The notes beneath the pieces were generated by a model that worked only from the letters and a program-made list of their open reading frames with translations, was not told the origin of the DNA and made no database searches. Below, in pieces: positions 15,949 to 32,366 of a stretch of DNA of 51,325 bases. Made by a program: the position numbers and the translations under genes. This DNA comes from an uncultured Bacteroidales bacterium (lineage in GTDB: Bacteria; Bacteroidota; Bacteroidia; Bacteroidales; WCHB1-69), in assembly GCA_900316305.1 (NCBI GenBank), contig ONCM01000029.1, forward strand, positions 1 to 51,325, written 5' to 3'. Within the stretch, counting starts at the first letter, position 1. Each line of letters opens with the position of its first letter.

Positions 15949-17508
15949 TTACAACGGCAGGTTATCGTGTTTCTTGGCCGGATTCTCCAGACGTTTGTTA
16001 CGCAGCGACTCGAGGGCGCGGATCACGCGGAAACGGGTGTTACGCGGCTCGATGACGTCGTCGATGTAGCCGTATTGCGCAGCCACGTAAGGGTTGGAGA
16101 ATTTCTGACGATACTCTTCGACCTTCTCGTTGAGGAAGTTCTGGCGCTCGTTAGCATCCTCGATCTTCTTCATCTGGGAACCGTAGAGGATCTCAGCTGC
16201 GCCGCTGCCGCCCATGACGGCGATTTCAGCGGTAGGCCATGCGTAGTTCACATCGCCGCGCAGATGTTTGGAGCTCATCACGCAGTAAGCACCGCCGTAG
16301 TTCTTGCGGAGGATAACGGTGACCTTCGGCACGGTGCACTCGCCGTAAGCGTAGAGCAATTTCGCGCCGTGCAGGATGATACCGCCGTACTCTTGGCCGG
16401 TGCCGGGCAGGAAGCCGGGAACGTCAACCAACGTCACCAACGGGATGTTGAAGGCGTCGCAGAAACGGACGAAACGGGCACCCTTGCGGGAAGCGTTGAT
16501 GTCGAGCACGCCGGCCATGCACTTGGGCTGGTTGGCGACAATACCCACGGCCATACCGTTGAAGCGTGCGAAACCGACCACGATGTTTTGCGCGTAGGTG
16601 GCGTGCACTTCGAGGAACTTGCCGTCATCGACAATGCCGCCGATCACATCCTTCACATCGTAAGGTTGGTTCGGGTTGTCAGGGATGATGGAGTTGAGGC
16701 TGTCTTCCAGACGGTTGATGGGATCCTCGGTGGGTTCGTACGGAGGTTCCTCCATGTTGTTGGAAGGCAGATAGCTGATGAGGTCACGCAGCAGGGCGAT
16801 ACCCGTCTCCTCGTCGGCAACGGAGAATTGCGCCACGCCGGACTTCGTGGAGTGGATGGTCGCACCACCGAGCTGCTCGGTCGTCACATCCTCGCCCGTG
16901 ACGGTCTTCACGACCTTCGGACCGGTGACGAACATGTAGCTGGAGTTCTGAGCCATCATGATAAAGTCGGTCAATGCAGGAGAATAGACGGCACCACCGG
17001 CGCAAGGACCGAAAATAGCGGAGATTTGCGGAATCACACCGGAAGCGAGGATATTGCGTTGGAAAATCTCGGCATAGCCAGCCAAGCTGTTGACACCCTC
17101 CTGAATACGTGCTCCACCGGAATCGTTGAAGCCGATGACGGGAGCGCCGACCTTCATGGCCTGGTCCATCACCTTGCAGATCTTAGCGGCGAAGGTCTCG
17201 GAAAGAGAACCGCCGAAAACCGTGAAATCCTGGGAGAAAACATAGACCAAACGGCCGTTCACCGTACCATAACCTGTCACGACACCGTCGGAGAGGAATT
17301 TGTCCTTTTCAATGCCGAAGTTGGTGCAGCGGTGGGTAACGAACATGTCGAACTCCTCAAAGCTGCCCTCGTCGAGAAACATCAGGATGCGCTCGCGCGC
17401 GGAATATTTACCTTTGGCGTGCTGCTTGTCAATTTTGTCTTGACCGCCGCCCAAACGAGCCTTCTCGCGAAGTGCAAGCAACTCGTTGATTTTATCTTGC
17501 ATTGCCAT
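15949..17508 (-). CDS. mmdA: Methylmalonyl-CoA decarboxylase alpha subunit / acyl-CoA carboxyltransferase
   Basis: Carboxyltransferase that moves the carboxyl group of methylmalonyl-CoA to biotin. With the membrane subunit this converts methylmalonyl-CoA to propionyl-CoA while pumping Na+. At 519 residues it has the usual length. Acyl-CoA and carboxybiotin oxyanion motifs are visible: [14 protein letters not shown] and [15 protein letters not shown] in the N-half, and [23 protein letters not shown] with [13 protein letters not shown] in the C-half. The same family includes propionyl-CoA carboxylases. Co-transcription with OadG, biotin carrier and OadB subunits favours the decarboxylase role in propionate formation from succinate. 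A weak promoter-like TACTTTCG lies at 17574-17581. Confidence 0.93.
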
Positions 17509-17643
17509 ACTTTATTGATATTTAGTTTGTTATAAATTTAAAATATATGATTATTTCGCTCATTAATAAGTCGCGAAAGTACAAAAAATTTTGATATGAA
17601 AGCCTTCAATCGCTTAGAAAGAGTTAACACTAATTTTGCGTCT

Positions 17644-18102
17644 CTACAATTCCCGACACAGTTTCTGTATAACCTCCGCATGTTGCGGAAACCGTTGCAA
17701 CAGTTCCTCTTTCCGGCCCAGTTCGAAGTTTTCGAAGGTGAAGGCGGGAGCCACCGCACAACCCACCAAACAGAAACCCTCTTTCGATGGAATATCGGCG
17801 GCAAACCACTGCTCAGGATGAATCACGACTTGCATCTCCCCGTCGGGCGACAAGTTGTGGACAATCAATTTTCCATCAGTGTCGATGACATAGATGTTGA
17901 GCGGTTCACCCGCGTGGTAGTACCAAATTTCCGTCATCTCATGCAGCCGGTGGAAAGCCGACATATCACTGTCCGTCAGCATGTAATAGATGGTGGAAAT
18001 ATCCTTCTTCCCGCTGGCATCGTTGCCGAAAACCTGCCGGTAGTAGCCGCCTTCGGGATGGGGTTCCAGTTGTAGTTTTTCAATATATGCTTTTGCGTCC
18101 AT
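17644..18102 (-). CDS. Cupin-fold protein (DUF985 / Cupin_5)
   Basis: A 152-residue single-domain cupin. The family-typical N-terminus AKAYIEKLQLEPHPEGGYYRQVF is followed by DMSAFHRLHEMTEIWYYHAGEPL and a Gly-rich sheet pattern. Molecular function of the family is not established; metal-dependent sugar-acid or small-molecule chemistry has been suggested for relatives. ATG at 18102 is preferred over TTG at 18108. It starts 20 bases after the purine permease stop on the same strand, so the two are probably co-transcribed. Confidence 0.85.
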   Translation of the reverse strand: MDAKAYIEKLQLEPHPEGGYYRQVFGNDASGKKDISTIYYMLTDSDMSAFHRLHEMTEIWYYHAGEPLNIYVIDTDGKLIVHNLSPDGEMQVVIHPEQWFAADIPSKEGFCLVGCAVAPAFTFENFELGRKEELLQRFPQHAEVIQKLCREL

Positions 18103-18122
18103 AGACAATTGTTAATTCAACA

Positions 18123-19469
18123 TTATAAACTTTTCTGCACATACCGCAGCACGAAAAGGACGAAGAGCACCCAGATGGTGGGGCTGATTTTCTGTATGCC
18201 TTTCTTTCCGGTGCAGACGTTCATCAGCACATAGACGATGATGCCCAACATGATGCCGTCGCTGATGCTGTAACTCAACGGCATCATAATCATGGTGACG
18301 AAAGCGGCGATGGTCTCGCTGGTATCTTCCCAGTTGATATCGGTGACGTTGTAGAACATCATAACGCCAACGATGATGAGGGCGGGACCCGTAGCGGCGG
18401 CAGGGATGGCCAAAAACAGAGGGCTGAAGAAGAGCGACAACGCAAAACAACAGGCGATGACGAAGGCGGTGAGTCCCGTACGTCCACCCACAATAACCCC
18501 GGCAGCACTTTCCACGTAAGTGGTGGTGGTCGAGGTACCTAACATGGCCCCGGTGGTGGTAGCAACGGCATCGGCCATCAGCATCCGGCCCACGCCATCA
18601 ACTTTTCCGTCCTTATCTACCATGCCCGTCTTCATCGAAACACCGATCACCGTACCGATGGTATCGAAAAGGTCAACAAAGAGGAAGGTGAAGATGACGA
18701 TAAACATATCCGGAGTGAAAATGCTTGACCATTCCATTTTCATGAAGATAGGAGCCACCGAGGGCGGAGTGGAAACCACACCGTTTAAGTGGGTCACACC
18801 CAGTGGAATGCCGATAAGCGCTGTGGCAAGGATGCCCCATAGAAGTCCGCCTTTGACCTCCCGGACCACCAACGCACCGCATATCACCAGACCGATGAGG
18901 GAGAGCAAGGTGGCCGGGTTGCCGAAATCACCGAGGGTAATCAGCGTGCTCTGGTCATCGACCACGATACCGCAGTTGTGCAGACCGATAAAGGCGATGA
19001 AGAGACCGATACCCGCGCCAATGGCCGCCTTCAAACTTGCGGGGATAGCGTTGGCGATGAGTTCCCGAACCTTGAAGAGCGAGAGTATGATGAACAGGAT
19101 GCCCTCAACAAACACGGCCGTGAGGGCGAAATGCCAGCTGTAGCCCATCCCTAAGCAGACGGTGAAGACGAAGAAGGCGTTGATTCCCATGCCGGGGGCC
19201 AATCCGAAGGGTTTCTTGGCATAGACGGCCATCACCAAGGTGCCGACGATAGCAGCGAGGGCAGTTGCCGTGAAAACGGAGTTGGTGGGCATTCCCAAAG
19301 GCTCAAGGGCGCTGAAAATGCCGGGATTCACGGCCAGAATGTAGGCCATGGTGAGGAAGGTGGTCACACCGGCCACAATCTCGGTCCTCACCTTATGCTG
19401 TTCGGGGTCAAAACCAAATAGTTTCTTTAACACGGACATCTTATTATCTCCGATAACTTGTTCAATCAT
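18123..19469 (-). CDS. NCS2-family purine (guanine/hypoxanthine) permease
   Basis: Inner-membrane proton symporter of the AzgA/PbuG branch, taking up adenine, guanine or hypoxanthine. The 448-residue polytopic protein carries the branch signatures FGFDPEQHKVRTEIVAGVTTFLTMAYIL at the start, FVDLFDTIGTVIG in the middle and ESAAGVIVGGRTGLTA later. ATG at 19469 follows a TATTTTTG box by 26 bases; an internal ATG ten codons in is also possible. Exact purine preference cannot be told. Confidence 0.93.
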   Translation of the reverse strand: MIEQVIGDNKMSVLKKLFGFDPEQHKVRTEIVAGVTTFLTMAYILAVNPGIFSALEPLGMPTNSVFTATALAAIVGTLVMAVYAKKPFGLAPGMGINAFFVFTVCLGMGYSWHFALTAVFVEGILFIILSLFKVRELIANAIPASLKAAIGAGIGLFIAFIGLHNCGIVVDDQSTLITLGDFGNPATLLSLIGLVICGALVVREVKGGLLWGILATALIGIPLGVTHLNGVVSTPPSVAPIFMKMEWSSIFTPDMFIVIFTFLFVDLFDTIGTVIGVSMKTGMVDKDGKVDGVGRMLMADAVATTTGAMLGTSTTTTYVESAAGVIVGGRTGLTAFVIACCFALSLFFSPLFLAIPAAATGPALIIVGVMMFYNVTDINWEDTSETIAAFVTMIMMPLSYSISDGIMLGIIVYVLMNVCTGKKGIQKISPTIWVLFVLFVLRYVQKSL

Positions 19470-19622: not shown

Positions 19623-19690
19623 CATCGCCTCGGAGAGGCGCCACGCACGCAGTGCAATTAACACCATACAAGCGAAGCGCAGTGTGGTGA
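19623..19690 (+). repeat. REP-like 68-nt repeat, left copy
   Basis: Starts with the hairpin CGCCTCGGAGAGGCG and ends CGCAGTGTGGTGA. It matches 20440-20507 at 66 of 68 positions, counted by eye. Confidence 0.9.
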
Positions 19691-19817
19691 AGACGGATAC
19701 GCACACCCCATAAGCATCTCGGAGAGATGCGACCAACACAATAATCCGACCATCTCTCCGTTATCATCACACTATAAACAAAATAAAAATAACTACAAAA
19801 AAACTATAAACAAAATT

Positions 19818-20267
19818 ATGAGTTACACACAAACATTCTATCACATCATCCTCCGCACACATTGTAGCATTCCTGCCATAGTCGAAGACCACGAGCGAGA
19901 ACTATACTCCTACATGCTCGGTTTCATCAACAACAAAGGAGCCCGTCTTTACCGTATCGGCGGTATGCCCGACCACGTGCACCTTTTCGTATCTTTGCCC
20001 GCGACCTTGGCAATGTCCAAGTTTGTCCAAGAGCTCAAAGTCTCCACCAGCAAGTGGCTCAAGGCCAACGCTCATTTCCCGCTTTTCGATGGTTGGACGA
20101 AAGAGTACTCTGGCTTTTCATACAACCTACGGGACAAAGACATGATAGTAGGATATATCGCCAAGCAGAAGGAGCACCATCGACACATGACATTCGCCGA
20201 GGAGTACCGACAATTCCTTGTCGAGAACGGCGTTGAGATCAAGGAGGAGTATTTTCTTCAGGACTGA
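19818..20267 (+). CDS. REP-associated tyrosine transposase / IS200-family Y1 transposase
   Basis: A 149-residue single-strand DNA transposase of the HUH superfamily. The metal-binding HUH motif is MPDHVHLFVSLP (His53 and His55). The catalytic tyrosine is Tyr113 in YIAKQKEHH, the family pattern YIxxQxxHH. No accessory tnpB/IscB gene is beside it. Flanking palindromic repeats, rather than a compact insertion sequence with tnpB, favour the RAYT reading: a domesticated enzyme linked to REP repeats. The gene is intact. Confidence 0.92.
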   Translation: MSYTQTFYHIILRTHCSIPAIVEDHERELYSYMLGFINNKGARLYRIGGMPDHVHLFVSLPATLAMSKFVQELKVSTSKWLKANAHFPLFDGWTKEYSGFSYNLRDKDMIVGYIAKQKEHHRHMTFAEEYRQFLVENGVEIKEEYFLQD

Positions 20268-20334
20268 TTGTCGCATCTCTCCGAGATGCTTGCCCTGCCC
20301 GCGCATGTCTAACACCATACTGCGCCTGTCCTTT

Positions 20335-20378
20335 TCACCACACTGCGCGCTATCGCGCTTGTATGGTGTTAATTGCGC
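20335..20378 (-). repeat. Inverted partial REP-like copy
   Basis: TCACCACACTGCGC and GCGCTTGTATGGTGTTAATTGC are the reverse complement of the 3' part of the 68-nt repeat. It can fold with the copy at 20440-20507. Confidence 0.75.
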
Positions 20379-20439
20379 CTATCAGCGCATCTCATGCCTC
20401 CGGCATGATGCCGTTGTTGATGCAGAGCACTTCATACGT

Positions 20440-20507
20440 CATCGCCTCGGAGAGGCGCCACGCACGCGGTGCAATTAACACCATACTAGCGAAGCGCAGT
20501 GTGGTGA
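20440..20507 (+). repeat. REP-like 68-nt repeat, right copy
   Basis: Second copy of the repeat at 19623. Read on the minus strand it supplies the last ten codons and the stop of the nitroreductase gene. Confidence 0.9.
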
Positions 20508-21879: not shown

Positions 21880-21999
21880 TCAACCGTTTTTTGTCGTTGT
21901 CAGAAGATAAGAAAGTTGGTACAAGTCGCTTTCGGGGTTTTGCATGCACTCCGCAAATACACCGAATTGCGACTGAGTTAATGGAGCCGTTTGTTTCAT
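21880..21999 (-). pseudogene. Truncated start of a second NRPS condensation domain
   Basis: A 39-codon frame starts with ATG 49 bases after the big NRPS stop, on the same strand. Its product begins MKQTAPLTQSQFGVFAECM and continues with SDLYQLSYLL before a stop. The large NRPS begins MKQSAPLSKSQYGIYAECV and continues with IFYNLPYFFVL, so the two N-termini align without gaps and share the C-domain entry motif. After about 33 residues the similarity ends and TTTKNG-stop follows. The simplest reading is the 5' scar of a second NRPS gene that was deleted. A functional micropeptide is less likely. Confidence 0.75.
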
Positions 22000-22048: not shown

Positions 22049-25000
22049 TTAATCGAAATAACCGAAACCGGCGATAGCCGTCAGCATTCGGTCTACATAA
22101 TCCCACGAGGTACTCGACCAGTGGAAGCCAAGGCGGTGCAGGACATTGCAGGTGTAGCGGTTGTCACGTTCAATGATCGCGGCCTTTTGTCCGTGGGTAA
22201 CATCTTGGTAGGCCAGAACGGCTGAGAGCAGCTTGGCCTTTTCGGGGTCTTTTCCGGCCTCTTCAATAGCTTTCTCGAACTCGGCGTTTTCAACAAAGCG
22301 TATCTCCCTGCCCACCTTCGCCATGAGTTGGAGCACGTCGCCCAACAACTCCGTGTGGTTATTGAAGGGCTGGAAGACGGTACATTCCTTTGGCGTCGAT
22401 GCGAGGGTCACCACAGCCTTGGCCGTCTGGTCGATGGGCGACATCTCGGTCAACTCGTCATAACTGTCGTAGGGGCAGCAGCCCAGCACGTGGAATACTC
22501 TCAGACGTCCCATGTAGCTGTTGCTGTTGAAGTTGGCCTGGAATTCACCGTCATAGCTGCGCGGTGCCAGGTTACCTACACGCATCACCTTGGCATTCAA
22601 TCCATGGTGGGCAACGGCATCAAGCACCAAGCGCTCAGCCAAGAACTTGGAGTTAATATAACGATTGTCGAGGAACTGTCCGAACCACAGCTTGCGCTCG
22701 TCCAACATGGGTACCTGCTCGCCGTCGTTATGGAGAATCCATATCTCACCCACGGAGGTCGTAGAGATATGCACCAGTCTTGCGCCGGTCTTCAGACAGA
22801 ACTCCACGCAACGCTGTGCGCCGCCGATATTCACGTCCTCGATGTCAGTTCCCTTGGAGTAGTGCTTCACGTTGGCAGCGCAATTGAAGACGATGTCGAT
22901 ATGGCCGTCCACATTGATTTCCTGCGTCACGTCCGCATTCATCACAAAGAGACGGGTACCGAAAAGCTCCTTGAATGAATTCTCGAAATAGTAGAAAAGC
23001 AGGTTCTTGAGTCGATGCTCTGCAGCAGGCTGGTCCTTGCCACGAACCATGCAAGTAATGGTTGTGGCATCGGAGTCGATAAGTTCGCGCAACACATGGA
23101 TGCCAAGGTAGCCCGTGGCACCGGTAAGCAGGACATTACCCAGCTGCTGGCGCTCGCCCTTGAGGAATGTCTCAATATTGTTATGCTGCAGGATGGCATC
23201 GATACCGGAGTAGTCGAAGTTGGTTATGTTAACGTCGGAGTCTTCAGTGGGAGCTTCGCCAGTCACGAACTGCGCCAACAGACGCGGCGTAGGATGAGTG
23301 AACACATCGCCATAAATCACGTGGTAGCCAGCCTTGTCGGCCTCGATGATGACCTTCGTCACCATGAGCGATGTGCCGCCCAGCTCAAAGAAGTTGTCGG
23401 TGGCACTCACCTTGTCCAACGACAGGATGTCGCCAAAGATCTTGGCAAACAGACGCTCCTGTTCGTTCTTCGGCTCCACATATTCGTGTTCGGCAGCCTG
23501 GATGACGGGGGTTGGCAGCGCCTTGCGGTTCACCTTCTGGTTCTGGTTCAACGGGATGACATCAATCTGCATCGTGGCCGCCGGAATCATGTAAGGCGGT
23601 TTCTGCTGACCAATGAAAGCATTCAGCTCCTTGATGTCCACCTGCTCGTCGCTGACGATATAAGCCGCAATGAATTTACCACCCGTCTCGTAGTCGAAGG
23701 CCTGGACGGTGGCATCCTTGATACCGGGGTACTCGCGGATGACAGCCTCTACCTCCTTCAGCTCGATGCGGAAGCCACGAATCTTCACCTGTCCGTCGCG
23801 ACGCCCCACAAACTGGATGTTACCGTCAGCCAAGTAACGCACAATGTCGCCAGTACGATAGACACGGCTGTATTTCGCGTCGGTCGTAAACGGATTTGTC
23901 AGATAGGTCTCTGCGGTCTTTTCGGGACGGTTCAGATAGCCACGGCTTACCTGCGGGCCACTGACCCAAAGCTCACCCACGGCGCCTACCGGCAGGCGGT
24001 TCAGCTGCTTATCGACGATATATAACCGTAAATTGTCGAGCGGCTTGCCGATGGGGGCGTTCTGCTCGAACTCCTTCATGGGGTATGTGGTTGTAAAAAT
24101 GGTACACTCTGTAGGACCGTAGCCATTATGAAGTTGATAGGCCGTCGGAGGTGTGAGCGGCAGCACCTTTTCGCCACCAACGGAGAGATGGAGTAGCGAA
24201 TGGTTGTCAAAGTTCATCGCAAACTGACAGCCCACCTGTGTAGTCATGAACGAATGAGTGATACCTTCACGGTTGAAGTACTCGTTCAGGTCGGGCAGGT
24301 TCAGACGGATGTCCTCGCCGATGATATAGACAGCGGCGCCACAGGTCAGGGCGGAGTACATATCCATCATACAAGCGTCGAAACCATAGCTGGCGTAGGC
24401 GGCCACCTTGTGTTCAGGCTTCAGACCGTAGTAACGATGGTACCAGTGGCAGAAGCATACCAAGTTGCCATGCTCCAGCTGACAACCCTTGGGCGTACCT
24501 GTAGAACCTGAGGTGTAGAGCATGATAAACAGCGACGATGGCGTAATGTCTGCCTTGACAGGTGCCGTGGCAGCAGGCAAGGCTTCGATGTCCTTGGTCA
24601 GCAACACCTTACCCTGGTATTCATTTACGATGGGACGCAAGTCTTCGTCGGCAATGAGCAGCTTGGCATTGGCATCCTGCATCATAAAGTTCAGACGCTC
24701 GGCGGGATAGCTTGGATCCAGCGGCTGGTATGCGCAACCGGCTTTCAGCACACCTATGGAGGCCACCACCATCCACTTGCTGCGTGGAATCAGGATAGAC
24801 ACCACATCCTCGTTGCCGAGACCCAGCGACTGGACGTATTGGGCTATACGCTCCGACTGCTCATCGACCTGCCTATAGGTCAGACGGGTGTCGTGATAGA
24901 CCATGGCGATGTTGTCGGGATGCAGCTCAACCTGACGGCGGAAGAGTGACACAACAGTCAGGGTGTTGTCGTAATCGACATCGTTCTGGTTGAAACTGTC

Positions 25001-28000
25001 GAGCAAGGCAACCTGCTTGGTGTCGAGCAGCGACACGTTCTTCAGCGGTGTTGCGGGATTGCTGATGAAAGCATTGGCAGCGTTGCTGATGGACTGTGCC
25101 AGACATTCCATCAACTCGTGGCTGTAGCGGCCGTTGTCGTATTGCAGGCAGATGCTCGGCTTGCCCGACGGGTCGTCTTGGATGAAGAAAGCGATGCGGA
25201 ACTTCGGCGTGTCCGACTCGAAGGTCTCAACGGGTATCGTCTCACCTTTATATTTATAGTCATCGATGACTCCCATTTGGTAGGCGAACATGATTTCTGC
25301 GGTGAGGTCGTAGTCGGAAGCGATGCGTGTAAACGGATAAGTCTCGTGCTGCAACGTCTCTTCGAAGTTCTTGCTGGTTTCGTCGATGAACTCCATGACA
25401 CTCTGCTCACCAATGGTGGCACTCAGTGCCAGCGTGTTGACGAACATACCGACGGTGTTGCTGATGCGCAAGTCAGAACGTCCGTTGCTGATGGTGGTGA
25501 TGCACAGCTGCTCGTTGTTAGTAAAGCGTGAAAGAACATAGAAGGTAGCCGCCAGGATGTGATGTGCCGGAGAGATGTTTTTCTGACGACAGAAGTCCTC
25601 GATGGCAGCGAAATTCAACGGAGTGTACAAGGTGCCCAAGGTGCCCTGCACCTGTGGATTGGTAAGGTCTGAAGGAACCTCGGTAACGCCCTCGACGTTA
25701 CTCAAACGCTCTTGGAAGAAGTTGCGGGCTACAACGAAGTCTTCACTGCTTTCAGCGGCTTTCTGGGCGGCCACGAAGTCGGCGTAGGTGAAGGTTTCGG
25801 GTTCAATTTCCTTGCCGTTGAGCAAGTCAAACAACTGCGACAGCAGCAGGTCGAAGGAGCCACCGTCCACAACGAGGTGATGGATATCCATCATCAGATA
25901 CACCCACTCCTCAGTGGTGACAATCTCCATGCGGTAGAGCGGTCCATGCCTCAGGTTGAAGGGCTTGACGAACATCCACTTGTAACGGGGTATATCATCC
26001 TCCTTGCACTGGCTCTGGGCAATCTCTACCGGTTGCTCAAGATCAACAATTTGGATGATGTCGGACCCAGCACTGCCAAAATGCGCCTGCAGCTGAGGAT
26101 GCGTCTTAACGAGGGTTTCCACAGCCTTGGAAAGCAGCTTGACATCCACATCCTTGGGGAAACGGGCAATGACTGGCGTGTTGTATATGGTGGATTCGGG
26201 GTTCTTGATAGAATCCACATAAACACCCATCTGAGCATACGACAGCGGAATGTTGCTCATGTCGGCATGTGCTGTCTCGACTTCCGCCTGTTTGGCAGCG
26301 CCGCCATTCAGCAGGGCAGTTAGCACCTCGTTCTCGATGCTTTGCACACTGCCCGTCTTGGCCAAAGCTTTGGAATCTAACGTCACGCCATAGCGTTTGT
26401 TGATCTGGATGGCCAGCTTGATGGACATGATGGAGGTCAGGCCAACATAGCCCAATATCGTCGTGACACCAAAGTCCTCGGTATTGATGATTTGTGCGAT
26501 GATATCGTGGATTTCCTTTTCCAGTACATTCATAGGCACGTTGGTCTCCACAACCGACTCGGCGGCTTTCTGCTCGGGTTTCGGAAGGGCTTTCTTGTTC
26601 ACCTTCTGGTTCTGGTTGAGCGGAATGCGGTCGATTTGCATCGTCACGGCGGGCACCATGTAAGGCGGTTTCTCCTCCATGATGAAGTTGTTCAACGCAT
26701 TGATGTCGATGGTTTCATCGGAAACAATGTAGGCCGCGATGAACTTGCCGCCATTCTCATAGTCGAAAGCCTGCACGGTGACATCCTTGATGCCTGGGAA
26801 CTGGCGAATGACCGCTTCGACTTCCGTGAGTTCGATGCGGAAACCGCGAATCTTCACCTGTGCGTCGCGACGACCCACAAACTGGATGTTACCATCAGGC
26901 AGGTAGCGCACAATGTCGCCCGTGCGGTAGCAGCGACCCCAAGGAGTTTCAATGAAAGCCTCGGCTGTCTTTTCTGGACGATTCAGATAGCCACGTCCCA
27001 CTTGAGGGCCATTGATCCATAGCTCACCGGCTGCACCAACAGGCAACCTATGCCCGTATGCATCCATGATGTACAGATGCATATTCTCCACAGCCTTTCC
27101 TATGGGGATGTTCTTCAGATTCTCCTTCACGGCAAATGCCGTTACATAACAGATACTCTCTGAAGGGCCATAGCCGTTCAGGAGCAAATAGGGTGGAGGA
27201 GTGACATCTGCCAGTTTCTCACCACCTGTGATAAAGGCCTTCAGGGAGTGATTGGCGATATCGTTGACAAAAGAACGTGCCACCTGTGTCGTCATAAACG
27301 AATGGGTGATGCCGTTCTGTTCAAAATAGTCGTTAAGGGCAATGAGGTCAAGACGGATCTCTTCAGGAATGATATAGACGGTGGCACCCACTATGAGCGG
27401 TGGCCATAATTCCTGCAAACAAGCATCGAATCCAAAACTGGCATACGCTCCCACCCGGCTGTCCGATTCGATATGCAGCGCATGTTGGTGCATGTGGCTG
27501 AAAGCCACCACATTCCGATGCTCGAGTTGGCATCCCTTGGGTACTCCAGTAGAGCCACTGGTGTAGATGAGTGTAAATAGGCTTTCGGGTTTGGGACCAT
27601 CAAGGTTCTTGGAATCTTTCAGGTTCTCAATGTCTTTAGTAAGCAACACTTCCCCTTTGTATTCATCCACGATGGAACAGAGTCCCTCGTCGGCTATCAG
27701 CAGTCTGGAGGCCGTATCCTTCATCATGAAGTTCAGACGCTCGGCGGGATAACTCGGGTCCAACGGCTGATAAGCACAGCCAGCCTTCAGCACACCTAAC
27801 GAAGCAATGGCCATCCATTCTGAACGGGCTATCAGAATGGCTACCACATCCTCAAGTCCTAATCCTTTCGAGGCGATATAGCTTGCAATGTGATCGCTCA
27901 TGTCATCCAGTTCGGCGTATGTAAACTGCTTGTCCTTGAAAACCACAGCCGTCTTGTCGGGCGTGGCCTTGGCCTGCTGGCGGAACAACGATACAATGGT

Positions 28001-29299
28001 CTGTGTGTCGTCGTAAGGATTGTCCGTCTGGTTGAAACTGTCGAGCAGCTCCACTTGCGAAGCCGTGGTGACATCGATGTCGCACAGGCTGTCTTGACTG
28101 AGGAAGCCTCCCAGGGTGGCCTCGTAGCTCTCTACGAACTGGCTGATCAGCGTCTCAGAGTATGCGCTGGCATTGTATTCCGCCCTGACATGATATTGAT
28201 TGCCGACAGTATAGGCTGTCAGACAGAACGGCACTTCCAAGGTGAAGTTGCGGAGCTGTATGGTCTGCATGGGTTTCCCCATCAGTTGGGTGCCGCCAAT
28301 CATCTCGCCCTGCCATGCAAACATGGAGTTGCTTTGCAGGTTGAGGTCGGCCATCAAATCGGTATAGGCATAGATCTCATGCTTGCGGCAGCCTTCCATC
28401 TGCTCTTGATTGGCTTTCAGGAAGTCGAGCACGGGGGTTTCGTCGGTGAACTTGGCGTAAACGGGCACCGTCTTCACGGTCATACCGACGGAATGTTGGA
28501 ACTTTGGTTCGGTGCGTCCGTTGTGAACTGTGGTGAACAGCGATTCATGTTCATTGTTGTACTTGGCCAACAGGTAGGCGTATGCCGCCGTGAAAAGGGT
28601 ATTCTTATAGATACCGTTGGCCTTGCAGAACTCCTCTACCTTTCCCTTGTCAATGTTGAGCACACGGACACTATTGGCCTCAGAGTGTTCCGTGCCTTCG
28701 AGGTCGGGAATGAGCTGGGTAAACGTATCGCCGCAGTCAAAGTTTTGGGCATACCATTGTTTGCTTTCTTCAAAGGCGGGTGTTTTACGCATCTCGGCCT
28801 CAGCAAGAGCCAGTTCCCGCATCGACATCTCCTCGGGAGCAAGCGCGCCGCCGTTGTAGGCCGTCTCCACATCACGAATGATAGTATTAAGCGAGGTGCC
28901 ATCGAAAATGATATGGTGCGTGTCGAAGAGCCAATAGACATGCTCCGCGTCACGCATCACTTTGGTATGAAACAGTCTGCCGCCATTAAGCATGAACGGC
29001 TCGATGAATTTCTGTTTCTCGGCCTCAATGTCCGTCATCTGTTCGACGACAAGGCTGTACTCCTCCTTTTCCATATCGACGGACTGGAAGGGTTCGCCGT
29101 CTTCGGTCACCCCAATTCGGGTGAAGAAAGTGGGGTGTGACTTAAGCGTCGTCTCGATGGCACGGCACAATCGGTCGGCATCAATGCTGCCGTCCAAGAC
29201 AAAGAAATAAGGCAGGTTATAAAAAATCTCGTTTTCATGGCTTACGCATTCAGCGTAGATGCCATATTGCGATTTTGAAAGGGGGGCGGATTGTTTCAT
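22049..29299 (-). CDS. Nonribosomal peptide synthetase, C-A-T-C-A-T-R (dipeptide aldehyde type)
   Basis: A cytoplasmic assembly line of 2416 residues with two complete modules and a reductive release domain. C1 has HHIIFDG at 128-134. A1 has YTSGSTGVPKG at 579-589, NGYGPSE at 708 and invariant Lys899. T1 carries Ser956 in GLTSIMSIKL. C2 has HHLVVDG at 1140-1146. A2 has YTSGSTGTPKG near 1595, NGYGPTE near 1725 and Lys1922. T2 carries Ser1977 in LGGTSL. The terminal reductase has TGATGYLG at 2059-2066, STTS near 2180 and Tyr2214-x3-Lys2218. All catalytic residues are present. Expected product: two amino acids joined and released by NAD(P)H as an aldehyde, which can cyclise to a dihydropyrazinone/pyrazinone. 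A C domain in front of the first A domain permits N-acylation. Both A domains keep the Asp that binds the alpha-amino group. The gene follows STAS and SpoIIE/RsbW-like genes on the same strand; no box of its own is seen. Confidence 0.96.
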   Translation of the reverse strand: MKQSAPLSKSQYGIYAECVSHENEIFYNLPYFFVLDGSIDADRLCRAIETTLKSHPTFFTRIGVTEDGEPFQSVDMEKEEYSLVVEQMTDIEAEKQKFIEPFMLNGGRLFHTKVMRDAEHVYWLFDTHHIIFDGTSLNTIIRDVETAYNGGALAPEEMSMRELALAEAEMRKTPAFEESKQWYAQNFDCGDTFTQLIPDLEGTEHSEANSVRVLNIDKGKVEEFCKANGIYKNTLFTAAYAYLLAKYNNEHESLFTTVHNGRTEPKFQHSVGMTVKTVPVYAKFTDETPVLDFLKANQEQMEGCRKHEIYAYTDLMADLNLQSNSMFAWQGEMIGGTQLMGKPMQTIQLRNFTLEVPFCLTAYTVGNQYHVRAEYNASAYSETLISQFVESYEATLGGFLSQDSLCDIDVTTASQVELLDSFNQTDNPYDDTQTIVSLFRQQAKATPDKTAVVFKDKQFTYAELDDMSDHIASYIASKGLGLEDVVAILIARSEWMAIASLGVLKAGCAYQPLDPSYPAERLNFMMKDTASRLLIADEGLCSIVDEYKGEVLLTKDIENLKDSKNLDGPKPESLFTLIYTSGSTGVPKGCQLEHRNVVAFSHMHQHALHIESDSRVGAYASFGFDACLQELWPPLIVGATVYIIPEEIRLDLIALNDYFEQNGITHSFMTTQVARSFVNDIANHSLKAFITGGEKLADVTPPPYLLLNGYGPSESICYVTAFAVKENLKNIPIGKAVENMHLYIMDAYGHRLPVGAAGELWINGPQVGRGYLNRPEKTAEAFIETPWGRCYRTGDIVRYLPDGNIQFVGRRDAQVKIRGFRIELTEVEAVIRQFPGIKDVTVQAFDYENGGKFIAAYIVSDETIDINALNNFIMEEKPPYMVPAVTMQIDRIPLNQNQKVNKKALPKPEQKAAESVVETNVPMNVLEKEIHDIIAQIINTEDFGVTTILGYVGLTSIMSIKLAIQINKRYGVTLDSKALAKTGSVQSIENEVLTALLNGGAAKQAEVETAHADMSNIPLSYAQMGVYVDSIKNPESTIYNTPVIARFPKDVDVKLLSKAVETLVKTHPQLQAHFGSAGSDIIQIVDLEQPVEIAQSQCKEDDIPRYKWMFVKPFNLRHGPLYRMEIVTTEEWVYLMMDIHHLVVDGGSFDLLLSQLFDLLNGKEIEPETFTYADFVAAQKAAESSEDFVVARNFFQERLSNVEGVTEVPSDLTNPQVQGTLGTLYTPLNFAAIEDFCRQKNISPAHHILAATFYVLSRFTNNEQLCITTISNGRSDLRISNTVGMFVNTLALSATIGEQSVMEFIDETSKNFEETLQHETYPFTRIASDYDLTAEIMFAYQMGVIDDYKYKGETIPVETFESDTPKFRIAFFIQDDPSGKPSICLQYDNGRYSHELMECLAQSISNAANAFISNPATPLKNVSLLDTKQVALLDSFNQNDVDYDNTLTVVSLFRRQVELHPDNIAMVYHDTRLTYRQVDEQSERIAQYVQSLGLGNEDVVSILIPRSKWMVVASIGVLKAGCAYQPLDPSYPAERLNFMMQDANAKLLIADEDLRPIVNEYQGKVLLTKDIEALPAATAPVKADITPSSLFIMLYTSGSTGTPKGCQLEHGNLVCFCHWYHRYYGLKPEHKVAAYASYGFDACMMDMYSALTCGAAVYIIGEDIRLNLPDLNEYFNREGITHSFMTTQVGCQFAMNFDNHSLLHLSVGGEKVLPLTPPTAYQLHNGYGPTECTIFTTTYPMKEFEQNAPIGKPLDNLRLYIVDKQLNRLPVGAVGELWVSGPQVSRGYLNRPEKTAETYLTNPFTTDAKYSRVYRTGDIVRYLADGNIQFVGRRDGQVKIRGFRIELKEVEAVIREYPGIKDATVQAFDYETGGKFIAAYIVSDEQVDIKELNAFIGQQKPPYMIPAATMQIDVIPLNQNQKVNRKALPTPVIQAAEHEYVEPKNEQERLFAKIFGDILSLDKVSATDNFFELGGTSLMVTKVIIEADKAGYHVIYGDVFTHPTPRLLAQFVTGEAPTEDSDVNITNFDYSGIDAILQHNNIETFLKGERQQLGNVLLTGATGYLGIHVLRELIDSDATTITCMVRGKDQPAAEHRLKNLLFYYFENSFKELFGTRLFVMNADVTQEINVDGHIDIVFNCAANVKHYSKGTDIEDVNIGGAQRCVEFCLKTGARLVHISTTSVGEIWILHNDGEQVPMLDERKLWFGQFLDNRYINSKFLAERLVLDAVAHHGLNAKVMRVGNLAPRSYDGEFQANFNSNSYMGRLRVFHVLGCCPYDSYDELTEMSPIDQTAKAVVTLASTPKECTVFQPFNNHTELLGDVLQLMAKVGREIRFVENAEFEKAIEEAGKDPEKAKLLSAVLAYQDVTHGQKAAIIERDNRYTCNVLHRLGFHWSSTSWDYVDRMLTAIAGFGYFD

Positions 29300-29411: not shown

Positions 29412-29714
29412 TTATTCGATGTCAAAAAGATCGATGAAGCCTGTCATTTTGAAGACATCCTTGATCTCATCATTCATATTCTTCAAAACAACCTTGTTGC
29501 CTTTTGCCTTGGCGTTCTTCAACAAGCCCAACAGAATGCGCAATCCGCTGGAAGCAATGTATTCCAGCTCGGTGCATTCGATAATAATCTCTTTTCCAGT
29601 AACATCGTGGAGGGGTTTCATAGCTTCTTCGAATTCGAGAGCATGTGCAGTGTCGAGTTCGCCTTCCAACGTAACGATGTACGTACCGTCTTTTTCAATG
29701 ATTGTCGTATTCAT
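29412..29714 (-). CDS. STAS-domain anti-sigma factor antagonist
   Basis: A 100-residue single STAS domain of SpoIIAA/RsbV type. The phosphorylation loop is YIASSGLRILL with Ser55-Ser56; the canonical Asp before the serines is replaced by Ala. In known systems such a protein is phosphorylated by an RsbW-like kinase and dephosphorylated by a SpoIIE/RsbU phosphatase, and its unphosphorylated form binds the kinase or another target. Here both activities are present in the gene immediately upstream (33-base gap). The output partner is not visible in the window. Confidence 0.93.
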   Translation of the reverse strand: MNTTIIEKDGTYIVTLEGELDTAHALEFEEAMKPLHDVTGKEIIIECTELEYIASSGLRILLGLLKNAKAKGNKVVLKNMNDEIKDVFKMTGFIDLFDIE

Positions 29715-29747: not shown

Positions 29748-31943
29748 TCAAATTTTTTTCTCAATTCTTAGGATGTTCTGCCCGTCGATCCGCTCGTAGT
29801 TGATGCTGTCCATCAGGTTCCGGACGAGCAGGATGCCCAAACCGCCAATCGGACGGTCTTCTACCGTGAGCGTCGTGTCGGCACGCGAGACGGCTGTCGG
29901 GTCGAACGCACGGCCTGAATCGGTAAGGATGAACCGCAGCCGTTCATCGTTGGCCATGGCCTCCACTTTCACCTGCCCTTTGACATCTGCCACGTATGCA
30001 TAATTCATGATGTTCACCACCACCTCCTCAACAGCCAGCTTGATCCGTCTGGACAAGGCCTTTTCGAGTTGCAACTCCTCCGTCACCGATTGGACAAACT
30101 GGTTCAGTTCCGTGACTTGTGCGACATCATTATCAAGGGTTATCGAACGGGAAAGGGTCCACGTTTCTTCCTTGGGAGTGTAACGGATAGCCAGCAGAGT
30201 AAGATCGTCGCTTGGCTCGGCCTCCCCCACAAAGGCATTCACCTTTTTCGTGAGGGTTTGAATGAGTTGCGTTGCAGTGGCATCGTGACATCCTTTCAAG
30301 ACTTTAAGCGTCTTTTCGAGACCAAACTGCTTACGATCCAAGTTTTTGGCTTCGGTGAGTCCGTCGGTATAGAGAAGGATCATGGTCTCAGGCTCGACAT
30401 AGATTTGCTGCATCATAAAGTCATATTCGCCTATCACCCCCAACGGCAAATTGGCTTTGGCAGGAAGCAGCTCAACCAAATCCCCTTTTATGGTTAGCGG
30501 CGGATTGTGTCCCGCGTTGCAGTATCGCATGAGGCCCGTAGGCAGGTCGAGCACGCCAATGAAGAACGTGACGAACATGTTGGACTCGTTGCCGCGGCAC
30601 AGGCTTTCGTTGATATTCTGCATGATGCGCGCAGGATGGCTCTCGTGCGAGGAGATGCTGAGGAACAGGGAGTGCGTGACGGCCATCACCAAGGCGGCCG
30701 GGACGCTCTTGCCGCTGACATCGCCGATGCAGAAATAGAGTTTCTCATCGCGGATGAAGAAGTCGTAAAGGTCGCCGCCCACCATTTTGGCCGGCACCAA
30801 AGAACCATAGATGTCAAGGTCGTTGCGGTCGGGGAAAGGCGGATACGTTTCGGGCAGCATGTTCATCTGGATGTTCTTGGCAATCATCATCTCATTGTCC
30901 ATGCGTTGCTTCTCAGCGTTGGCATCCCGAAGTTTGTAGATGCTTTGAGCGGAACGATAAATGATGAAAGCGAGGATCAGCAACCCGATCAACGTCAGCA
31001 CGATATTGCGCCGACGTGTTTGAATCAACGGTGCAAAAACCTCTTCGTCATAGTTGACCATAGCAATCCGCCAAGGGGCAATCAACTTGGGGCTATTGTA
31101 GAACACATGGCCTTTTTCGCCGTCTTCCTTATCTATAAATGCAAGAATGGTGCTCTTTTCTGTATGGCTTAAGGTGCGTTTAAGGGTGGAATCGTTAATC
31201 ATGGCCACCATGTCCTTCACATCCTGATGCTTGACTTCCGCAGGATTCGGACCACATATCAGCCTGCCCTTGCCTGAGAGCAGGAGATTGTAAGAAGAAG
31301 GGTACAGGCCGTGGGCGTTCAATACATCGCCTAACCACGCGGCATCGAGATCAACGCCGAGCAGGGCGACCACCCGACCACTTGGATCATGCACCGGGAA
31401 ATTGTACGTGACCAGCGTCACCGTGGAATCGTCGGGGTCACGATAGGGCTCGCTCCAGTAGGCCGTGTCATTATCCACCGCAAAATTAAAATAGGCGATT
31501 TGGGTGTAGTCGTATTTCTCGACATCATAGGAATATGTATTGATGGTCTTGCCGTCTCGATAGGAACAAGGCTGGAAAAGGCGGCCTTTTTCAGGATAGT
31601 AGTCTGGAATCATGGCGATACAGCATCCGTCGAAATCGGGATTCTGCTCCACGATGCGCCGCGTGACGGAGAACAAGGAGTCGGGATATGGAAGAGACTG
31701 CCCTATATCGTCAATATGGTTTTGCAAGGCGTTTTCCACCGCTTCGAGTGAATACTTGATTTTCTGCGCCTTGATAAACAAGTCCAGTTCGGTATTACGT
31801 TCCAAATTGGCACGGATCTCCTTGCGCGCATAATAACTCTGCACAGCCGAAAGCGCCAGCATCAGAAGCGCAGCAGTGACGAGAATCGCAACACTCGTTT
31901 TTGCCCCTAATGCTGTCCAACGGATCTTCTGCGTTTTTTTCAT
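29748..31943 (-). CDS. Cache-sensor SpoIIE-type phosphatase fused to an RsbW-like kinase domain
   Basis: A 731-residue membrane signalling protein. TM1 lies at about 12-33, followed by a periplasmic sensor of about 270 residues with double-Cache features (AYWSEPYRD, VALLGVDLDAAWL), TM2 at about 315-335 and a short coiled segment. The PP2C/SpoIIE domain has metal motifs VGGDLYDFF, CIGDVSGKSVPAALVMA, LLYTDGLTEA and SDDLTLLAIRY. The C-terminal HATPase_c domain of anti-sigma kinase type has AVEEVVVNIMNYAY, DSGRAFDP and GGLGILLVRNLMD. Opposing activities in one chain, with the STAS gene next door, suggest a self-contained switch set by an external ligand. ATG at 31943 follows a promoter at 31970. 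Confidence 0.94.
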   Translation of the reverse strand: MKKTQKIRWTALGAKTSVAILVTAALLMLALSAVQSYYARKEIRANLERNTELDLFIKAQKIKYSLEAVENALQNHIDDIGQSLPYPDSLFSVTRRIVEQNPDFDGCCIAMIPDYYPEKGRLFQPCSYRDGKTINTYSYDVEKYDYTQIAYFNFAVDNDTAYWSEPYRDPDDSTVTLVTYNFPVHDPSGRVVALLGVDLDAAWLGDVLNAHGLYPSSYNLLLSGKGRLICGPNPAEVKHQDVKDMVAMINDSTLKRTLSHTEKSTILAFIDKEDGEKGHVFYNSPKLIAPWRIAMVNYDEEVFAPLIQTRRRNIVLTLIGLLILAFIIYRSAQSIYKLRDANAEKQRMDNEMMIAKNIQMNMLPETYPPFPDRNDLDIYGSLVPAKMVGGDLYDFFIRDEKLYFCIGDVSGKSVPAALVMAVTHSLFLSISSHESHPARIMQNINESLCRGNESNMFVTFFIGVLDLPTGLMRYCNAGHNPPLTIKGDLVELLPAKANLPLGVIGEYDFMMQQIYVEPETMILLYTDGLTEAKNLDRKQFGLEKTLKVLKGCHDATATQLIQTLTKKVNAFVGEAEPSDDLTLLAIRYTPKEETWTLSRSITLDNDVAQVTELNQFVQSVTEELQLEKALSRRIKLAVEEVVVNIMNYAYVADVKGQVKVEAMANDERLRFILTDSGRAFDPTAVSRADTTLTVEDRPIGGLGILLVRNLMDSINYERIDGQNILRIEKKI

Positions 31944-31969
31944 CAATAAGTTATTACCAATTCACGTGG

Positions 31970-32240: not shown

Positions 32241-32270
32241 ATAGGTGTTTCATATTTCACGTCTCTAAAT

Positions 32271-32366
32271 TCATCGTTTTTCATCGTTTTTCATCGCTTT
32301 TCATCGCTTTTCATCGCTTTTCATCGCTTTTCATCGTTTTTCATCGCTTTTCATCGCTTTTCATCG
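32271..32366 (-). repeat. CGATGAAAA(A/G)C array at the end of the P-ATPase gene
   Basis: About nine decamer units on the minus strand (CGATGAAAAG or CGATGAAAAA). The first provides the CGA-TGA end of the P-ATPase frame. Confidence 0.93.

Follow-up and report, generated by a model that had tools for sequence, protein, structure and literature searches.

The window, i.e., the whole analysed stretch of 51,325 nucleotides from an uncultured Bacteroidales bacterium, carries on its minus strand a gene row consisting of a sensor-SpoIIE-HATPase fusion, a STAS gene, and a nonribosomal peptide synthetase (NRPS) gene, in this order and separated by gaps of 33 and 112 bp. The NRPS is encoded by a single uninterrupted ORF of 2416 aa (22049-29299). 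The features discussed here are the following:

29748..31946, minus strand: membrane sensor (PDC/Cache) - SpoIIE PP2C phosphatase - HATPase_c_2 (RsbW-type kinase) fusion
29412..29714, minus strand: STAS-only (RsbV-like) protein, 100 aa
22049..29299, minus strand: NRPS gene, C-A-T-C-A-T-R, 2416 aa (Pfam and own domain HMMs)
28010..29299, minus strand: C1 condensation domain, aa 1-430, HHIIFDG; proposed acyl-accepting starter
26585..28000, minus strand: A1 adenylation domain, about aa 434-905, signature read DAQFIGGCY(K)
26300..26527, minus strand: T1 carrier domain, about aa 925-1000, GLTS serine
25025..26266, minus strand: C2 condensation domain, about aa 1012-1425, HHLVVDG
23510..24982, minus strand: A2 adenylation domain, about aa 1440-1930, signature read DAMFSGGIF(K)
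23255..23467, minus strand: T2 carrier domain, about aa 1945-2015, FFELGGTSL
22052..23182, minus strand: R thioester-reductase domain, about aa 2040-2416, GATGYLG and YINSK
21886..21999, minus strand: putative start of a second NRPS, of which about 34-38 aa similar to NRPS N-termini are left before stops

Pfam recognizes two Condensation, two AMP-binding, two AMP-binding_C, and two PP-binding stretches as well as one NAD_binding_4 in the NRPS, each family exceeding its own gathering score, and purpose-built domain HMMs read the domain order as C-A-T-C-A-T-R in a single protein. The condensation motifs start at aa 128 (HHIIFDG, C1) and aa 1140 (HHLVVDG, C2), both adenylation domains possess YTSGSTG (aa 579 in A1, aa 1595 in A2) and A10-type lysine stretches (aa 896 and 1919), the carrier domains contain a serine in GLTSI (T1, aa 953) and GGTSL (T2, aa 1974), and the R domain shows LLTGATGYLG at aa 2057 and a YxxxK motif, YINSK, at aa 2214. 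The T1 motif is non-canonical, reading GLTS and not FFxLGGHS, with the serine retained, and S956 of T1 together with Y2214 and K2218 of the R domain is invariant in 10 aligned sequences. The first-pass annotation, made from the letters of the DNA, had claimed intact motifs in all seven domains and a Bacteroidota host, and had suggested a domain search; the motifs are borne out by Pfam, our own HMMs, and the motif positions, the domain search recovers C-A-T-C-A-T-R, and the host agrees with the NRPS of the same-family genome G056 (locus L140), which is 100% identical over 2433 aa to the NRPS of 'Bacteroidales bacterium Tb.RUG.402'. In its own genome (99 contigs, 3.28 Mb, 97% complete) the window NRPS is the sole condensation-domain protein found, the PF00668 matches being its two C domains. 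The same genome has one PF01648 phosphopantetheinyl transferase (PPTase), which is encoded on another contig and is 34% identical to the PPTase inside related clusters, so priming of the carrier domains seems possible.

Of 40 genomes searched in the genus, 19, among them the window genome, contain long matches to this family (a tally of 38/40 counts generic AMP-binding proteins too), which excludes chance. For the scan of named genomes, which is no census, the best 80 of 559 relatives were used, mostly MAGs labelled Bacteroidales, Prevotellaceae, Bacteroidaceae, Muribaculaceae or Paludibacteraceae, many of them from the rumen. Seven of these best 80 are Bacillota-labelled (L099, L101, L112, L127, L128, L133, and L134), L128 being Ruminococcus bromii ATCC 27255, so that full-length relatives are found in rumen Bacteroidales as well as in Bacillota, including the ruminopeptin species. 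Variants among the best 80 are longer lines and A-T-C-A-T-R lines; C1 is missing from the lines of ten loci (L092, L095, L096, L098, L109, L110, L117, L120, L124 with a broken frame, and L136). A gut dipeptide-aldehyde NRPS family that includes the ruminopeptin (rup) NRPS was reportedly described by Guo et al. 2017 and by Schneider and Balskus. The R. bromii NRPS (L128) has the same C-A-T-C-A-T-R architecture and aligns with window residues 6-2416, with 41% in the best segment; from species and architecture we infer that it is the ruminopeptin synthetase. The S. aureus aureusimine/phevalin synthetase AusA, an A-T-C-A-T-R line, likewise has two modules and a homologous R domain, whereas the window protein carries an N-terminal C domain in addition. 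The window synthetase is a further member of this already known kind, and the NRPS gene row with a fused partner-switch regulator is a variant arrangement. NRPS clusters of rumen Bacteroidota are already known in large numbers, 934 of them in Bacteroidaceae (PMC8241843). A more distant parallel is mru0068 of the archaeon Methanobrevibacter ruminantium M1, with separate neighbouring genes, likened here by published description and not by sequence, except for the 6vtj match given below; in PMC2812497 it consists of two C-A-T modules, ending in a thioesterase according to the text and in a thioester reductase domain according to the legend of Fig. S8.

Sequence comparison of the R domain with solved structures places 6vtj first (E 1.4e-63) and the AusA R domain 4f6c second (7.8e-29), whereas MxaA (3.6e-14), 8v1x (4.8e-11), and 4dqv (5.4e-6) match more weakly. 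6vtj comes from Methanobrevibacter ruminantium, and MxaA R is a four-electron enzyme. Release of an aldehyde by the window R domain is therefore likely on the grounds of its intact motifs and nearest matches, and the earlier proposal of a two-module line with reductive release, like those that make dipeptide aldehydes in gut bacteria, holds up, both by the R. bromii alignment and by the proximity of R to 6vtj and AusA R. R would reduce the T2 thioester with NAD(P)H in a two-electron step to a free N-acyl dipeptide aldehyde, which would be likely to inhibit serine, cysteine or threonine proteases; N-acyl dipeptide aldehydes of such kind are reported as cathepsin and proteasome inhibitors in PMC8518294. 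That R carries out a four-electron reduction to the alcohol, or that a neighbouring dehydrogenase completes the reduction, seems very improbable to us: MxaA R is among the matches, and in L074 an iron-containing alcohol dehydrogenase (17191-18384), which could reduce the aldehyde further, is encoded 53 bp after the NRPS, but among solved R domains 6vtj and AusA R come closest, and the next gene after the window NRPS on the minus strand codes for a carbonic anhydrase. As a part of the cluster this dehydrogenase was discarded, since it was found in L074 alone of the four NRPS-following genes tested; those of L117 and L136 are GTPases (GTP-bdg_N/MMR_HSR1).

Whether the product is acylated depends on C1. 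In a midpoint-rooted tree of 131 C/E domains, made up of a chosen 49 of 205 family domains and 82 references that are labelled by position alone, some of the tandem-gene labels being doubtful, the family C domains form one group (0.994) that is sister to reference epimerisation domains (0.979). Most family C2 domains constitute one subgroup (1.0), and a second subgroup (0.918) contains the C1 domains including that of R. bromii, the C2 domains of L112 and L134, and also domains from longer lines. The C1 of the window groups with the family's first C domains, apart from LCL and DCL references and from the N-terminal C domains of other first genes. The C-domain phylogeny that the first-pass annotation had asked for thus gives a divided answer, as C1 does not lie among LCL domains but does not group with N-terminal starter-position C domains either. 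The best structure-bearing match for both C1 and C2 is 2jgp (tyrocidine synthetase 3). As a proven starter C1 was set aside, for neither the 131-domain tree nor PDB matches nor plasmid matches single it out. The better argument for a starter role comes from the genome, where the search found no second condensation-domain protein and hence no upstream peptidyl donor to feed C1. C1 is likely a working domain since it keeps HHxxxDG, with H128, H129, D133, and G134 invariant in 10 aligned sequences. N-acylation of the product is plausible, and C1 would take the acyl group from a diffusible donor, acyl-CoA or acyl-ACP.

The same observations bear on a reading modelled on AusA, in which C1 is inert or vestigial and a free amino-dipeptide aldehyde cyclises by itself to a dihydropyrazinone or pyrazinone. 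AusA is the best NCBIfam model for the window NRPS (1497.9 bits), its R domain is among the closest solved ones, and C1-less A-T-C-A-T-R relatives adjoin the same regulatory module, which suggests that acylation is not essential to the family; STAS lies nearby in 9/10 and PP2C in 8/10 of the ten C1-less loci, so the module seems independent of the C1 domain. However, the score lies far below the AusA equivalog cut-off (NF047350) of 2500, for which reason the window protein was not accepted as an AusA orthologue, and the preserved C1 motif speaks against an inert domain. We regard such a cyclising product as unlikely and retain the N-acyl dipeptide aldehyde.

A-domain signatures were read with our own anchor script, in which the tenth position is filled in as Lys and which returned no code for many domains; for bacillomycin A domains it gave, where read, the expected codes for Asn, Tyr, Pro, Glu, and Ser. 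For R. bromii the script yields DASFLGGVY and DMK?LGTVS, which fit Leu-Glu, ruminopeptin being an N-acylated Leu-Glu aldehyde (PMC8518294). Six of nine read positions are alike between the A1 codes of the window and R. bromii, whereas the A2 code is Glu-type in R. bromii and aliphatic-type in the window. With low confidence, DAQFIGGCY of A1 and DAMFSGGIF of A2 (both with the added K) are predicted to specify aliphatic-type substrates. Accepting the acyl group at C1, the enzyme would join it to an aliphatic residue of the Leu/Ile/Val type loaded by A1 on T1, and C2 would add a second, probably also aliphatic residue loaded by A2.

In the two genes preceding the NRPS, Pfam detects SpoIIE PP2C (170.2 bits), HATPase_c_2 (85.5 bits), and STAS (68.1 bits), all above gathering scores; the second codon of the fusion gene, ATG at 31943, is its likelier start. 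The first-pass annotation had overlooked these linked genes, as well as the outer-membrane barrel genes usual in the genus and the NRPS remnant downstream. Among the best 80 of 559 named loci, the SSG serine is kept in 64/64 STAS sequences from 62 loci, the HATPase E/N/D/G residues in 57/57, and the PP2C aspartates in 58/58 or 59/59. RsbU/RsbV/RsbW modules share these three domains and their conserved residues, but in the window phosphatase and kinase are fused behind a Cache sensor and adjoin an NRPS gene. CrsR/HsbR-type partner-switching modules are a further comparison. The membrane sensor would drive the SpoIIE phosphatase to dephosphorylate the conserved serine of the STAS protein, the kinase domain of the same fusion polypeptide would oppose this, and the linked switch would in turn govern production or export. 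Taken together, the row in our opinion probably encodes a stand-alone N-acyl dipeptide aldehyde synthetase and a partner switch that controls formation or export of the product.

The linkage of switch and synthetase was followed with module-domain HMMs (E < 1e-4) on the best 80 of 559 named loci; the HMM seeds were drawn from some of the scanned loci, and many loci end at contig edges. In all 80, STAS is found in 62, PP2C in 56, HATPase in 55, STAS with PP2C or HATPase in 58, an outer-membrane barrel in 28, MATE in 23, and PPTase in 18. When at least 5 kb are available on both flanks (44 of the best 80), STAS occurs in 42/44 and STAS plus PP2C or HATPase in 40/44, the full module being absent from 4/44. 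The same HMM scan found the module beside none of 10 plasmid NRPS control loci, of which about seven are informative since L146, L147, and L155 have flanks of less than 3 kb. The seven Bacillota loci among the best 80 of 559 have a HATPase match in 7/7 and STAS in 6/7, and in R. bromii 2/3 of the HATPase_c_2 matches over cut-off lie within 2.7 kb of the NRPS. The bacterial family of R. bromii shows a strong match in 16/150 genomes, R. bromii included, and loci were examined from 14 of the other 15 matching genomes (G115 was left out): the module accompanies 6/9 R-terminated loci (G188, G177, G182, G245, G225, and G141, the exceptions being G237, G120, and G158) and 0/5 loci lacking R, two of which are on contigs of less than 10 kb. 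With 5 STAS and 8 SpoIIE matches in the 3.28 Mb of the own genome and 0 to 8 SpoIIE matches per genome in the genus, the background is low. The module in family loci is usual, not universal. Apart from the remark on the methanogen in PMC2812497, a conserved linkage of this kind was not described in the open-licence literature searched.

A hint at what the switch controls comes from R. bromii and related loci. Ahead of the R. bromii NRPS and on the same strand are a small HATPase gene, STAS, and, between STAS and NRPS (L128 8165-9925), a gene for a 586-aa MATE exporter with a C-terminal RsbW-type HATPase_c_2 that keeps the EE..N and DNG..FDP motifs; an HMM scan found no PP2C in this 27-kb stretch. 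R. bromii therefore has its kinase domains in a separate small gene and in an exporter fusion, whereas the window has the sensor-phosphatase-kinase fusion and no exporter gene adjoins its NRPS. Among 30 MATE ORFs of the searched loci, eight carry such a HATPase domain (L099, L104, L127, L128, L133, L161, L162, and L170), Pfam matches exceeding both gathering scores in 8/8; seven of the hosts are Bacillota-labelled or from the R. bromii family, and L104 is Bacteroidales-labelled. The other 22, including most Bacteroidales ones, are without a HATPase domain, and no HATPase match was obtained for the L169 exporter and the second L127 exporter, about 600 aa each. That one phylum joins the kinase-type domain to the phosphatase and the other joins it to the exporter points to a switch acting at export, and the target of this switch may be export or the assembly line instead of a sigma factor.

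To our knowledge, archaea lack bacterial sigma factors. If the methanogen module is homologous, it therefore cannot target one. According to PMC2812497, mru0068 lies beside genes for two serine phosphatases, an anti-sigma factor antagonist, and a MatE protein, which its authors suggested to serve in sensing, in the control of NRPS expression, and in export. Their view of regulated expression favours an ordinary transcriptional circuit, in which the kinase domain holds an unlinked alternative sigma factor that, once free, transcribes the operon. Such a circuit would follow the canonical RsbU/V/W logic (PMC8256260), the fusion and the STAS residues are canonical, and the SpoIIE and STAS counts given above make such circuits common in the own genome. 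On the other hand, besides the methanogen and its similar neighbours, no sigma-factor family is present among the 25 most frequent of the 137 families, down to ones matched by two ORFs, in a set of 138 flanking ORFs (95-420 aa) that represents 22 of the 80 named loci, and the kinase-type domain is fused to a MATE exporter in eight related loci. We consider a transcriptional circuit of this type possible, though somewhat short of an even chance. Direct control is made more probable by the eight MATE exporters, that of R. bromii among them, which bear an RsbW-type domain, and we tentatively propose that the phosphatase/kinase/STAS module is inherited as part of the synthetase lineage, has passed with it from phylum to phylum and perhaps into Archaea, and controls exporter or assembly line by direct contact, without a sigma factor.

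Peptide aldehydes of gut microbes are hard to isolate (PMC12327764), and the literature searched gave no account of what switches their genes on. If the family does have a switch of its own, silent clusters could be turned on through its sensor domain or by mutating STAS, and if this switch acts on exporter or enzyme without a sigma factor, partner switching would reach as far as controlling a natural-product pathway directly. In rumen Bacteroidales the family is frequent, and its products could shape competition and protein breakdown there.

Gene order was also compared in 20 loci of the genus holding the NRPS start and some upstream sequence. STAS adjoins the NRPS in 19/20, a SpoIIE homologue is within the examined stretch in 18/20, the barrel gene in 17/20, and PPTase in 9/20; G033 lacks STAS and SpoIIE and keeps the barrel alone, and G035 ends at a contig edge. 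Typically the barrel gene, often with PPTase, is situated between STAS and NRPS, whereas at the window locus it is absent, as is a MATE gene beside the NRPS. A model of the L083 barrel, made from 14 sequences with middling confidence (mean pLDDT 70.3), has AlgE entries as all of its 15 best PDB matches (TM 0.54-0.58), so the outer-membrane gene is best called 'AlgE-like barrel', with no finer identity. Two further loci, G029:C81 and G038:C30, are barrel-less like the window, have SpoIIE of a shared type (81-95% identical), and possess intact NRPS genes. Each of the three genomes has another SpoIIE-STAS-barrel locus, namely C37 (L044 5938-9854) in the own genome, which has no adjacent NRPS, C85 in G029, where an NRPS remnant of 32 aa survives, and C9 in G038 with two NRPS genes; from these loci the barrel may serve window-type loci in trans. 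Loci similar to C37 are G006:C40 and G036:C60, the latter near a contig end. On C47 of the own genome (L158), a further STAS gene, accompanied by a SpoIIE fragment at the contig end, lies beside two ABC transporters, one of them with a C39 peptidase domain as in bacteriocin export.

Downstream of the window NRPS, the short stretch at 21886..21999 resembles the start of another synthetase; since in G029 the first NRPS is followed by a complete second one and by a MATE gene, this stretch is probably what is left of a tandem copy that the window locus has lost. One might read the locus as decaying, with outer-membrane gene, PPTase, and second NRPS lost and no product made, and the remnant, the missing barrel and PPTase genes, and an IS200-like element 1.6 kb beyond the remnant agree with this. 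However, 2416 stop-free codons with intact core motifs, the PPTase and the C37 barrel gene beside a second SpoIIE-STAS pair retained in the own genome, and the intact NRPS genes of the two other barrel-less loci make decay improbable, and we keep to a functional, switch-governed synthetase. Its NRPS is a mosaic at the module level: the first 780 aa share 92% identity with G003:C58, aa 961-2416 share 75-96% with L057, and the A1 core (aa 481-800) shares 88-99% with L043 and L034 versus 50-80% with six other relatives (80-residue blocks in the last two comparisons). From this pattern of identities, the A1 core appears to have been swapped.

The IS200-like transposase ORF (PF01797, 19818-20267) lies within window positions 19623-20507 and is flanked by two 68-nt repeats, 97% alike, and by inverted short repeats as in REP-associated transposases; the right 68-nt repeat extends into the 3' end of a nitroreductase ORF. 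Roughly nine or ten tandem copies of a 10-bp repeat (TTCATCGYTT on the plus strand) occupy 32270-32366, just past the 3' end of the P-type ATPase gene and reaching into it.
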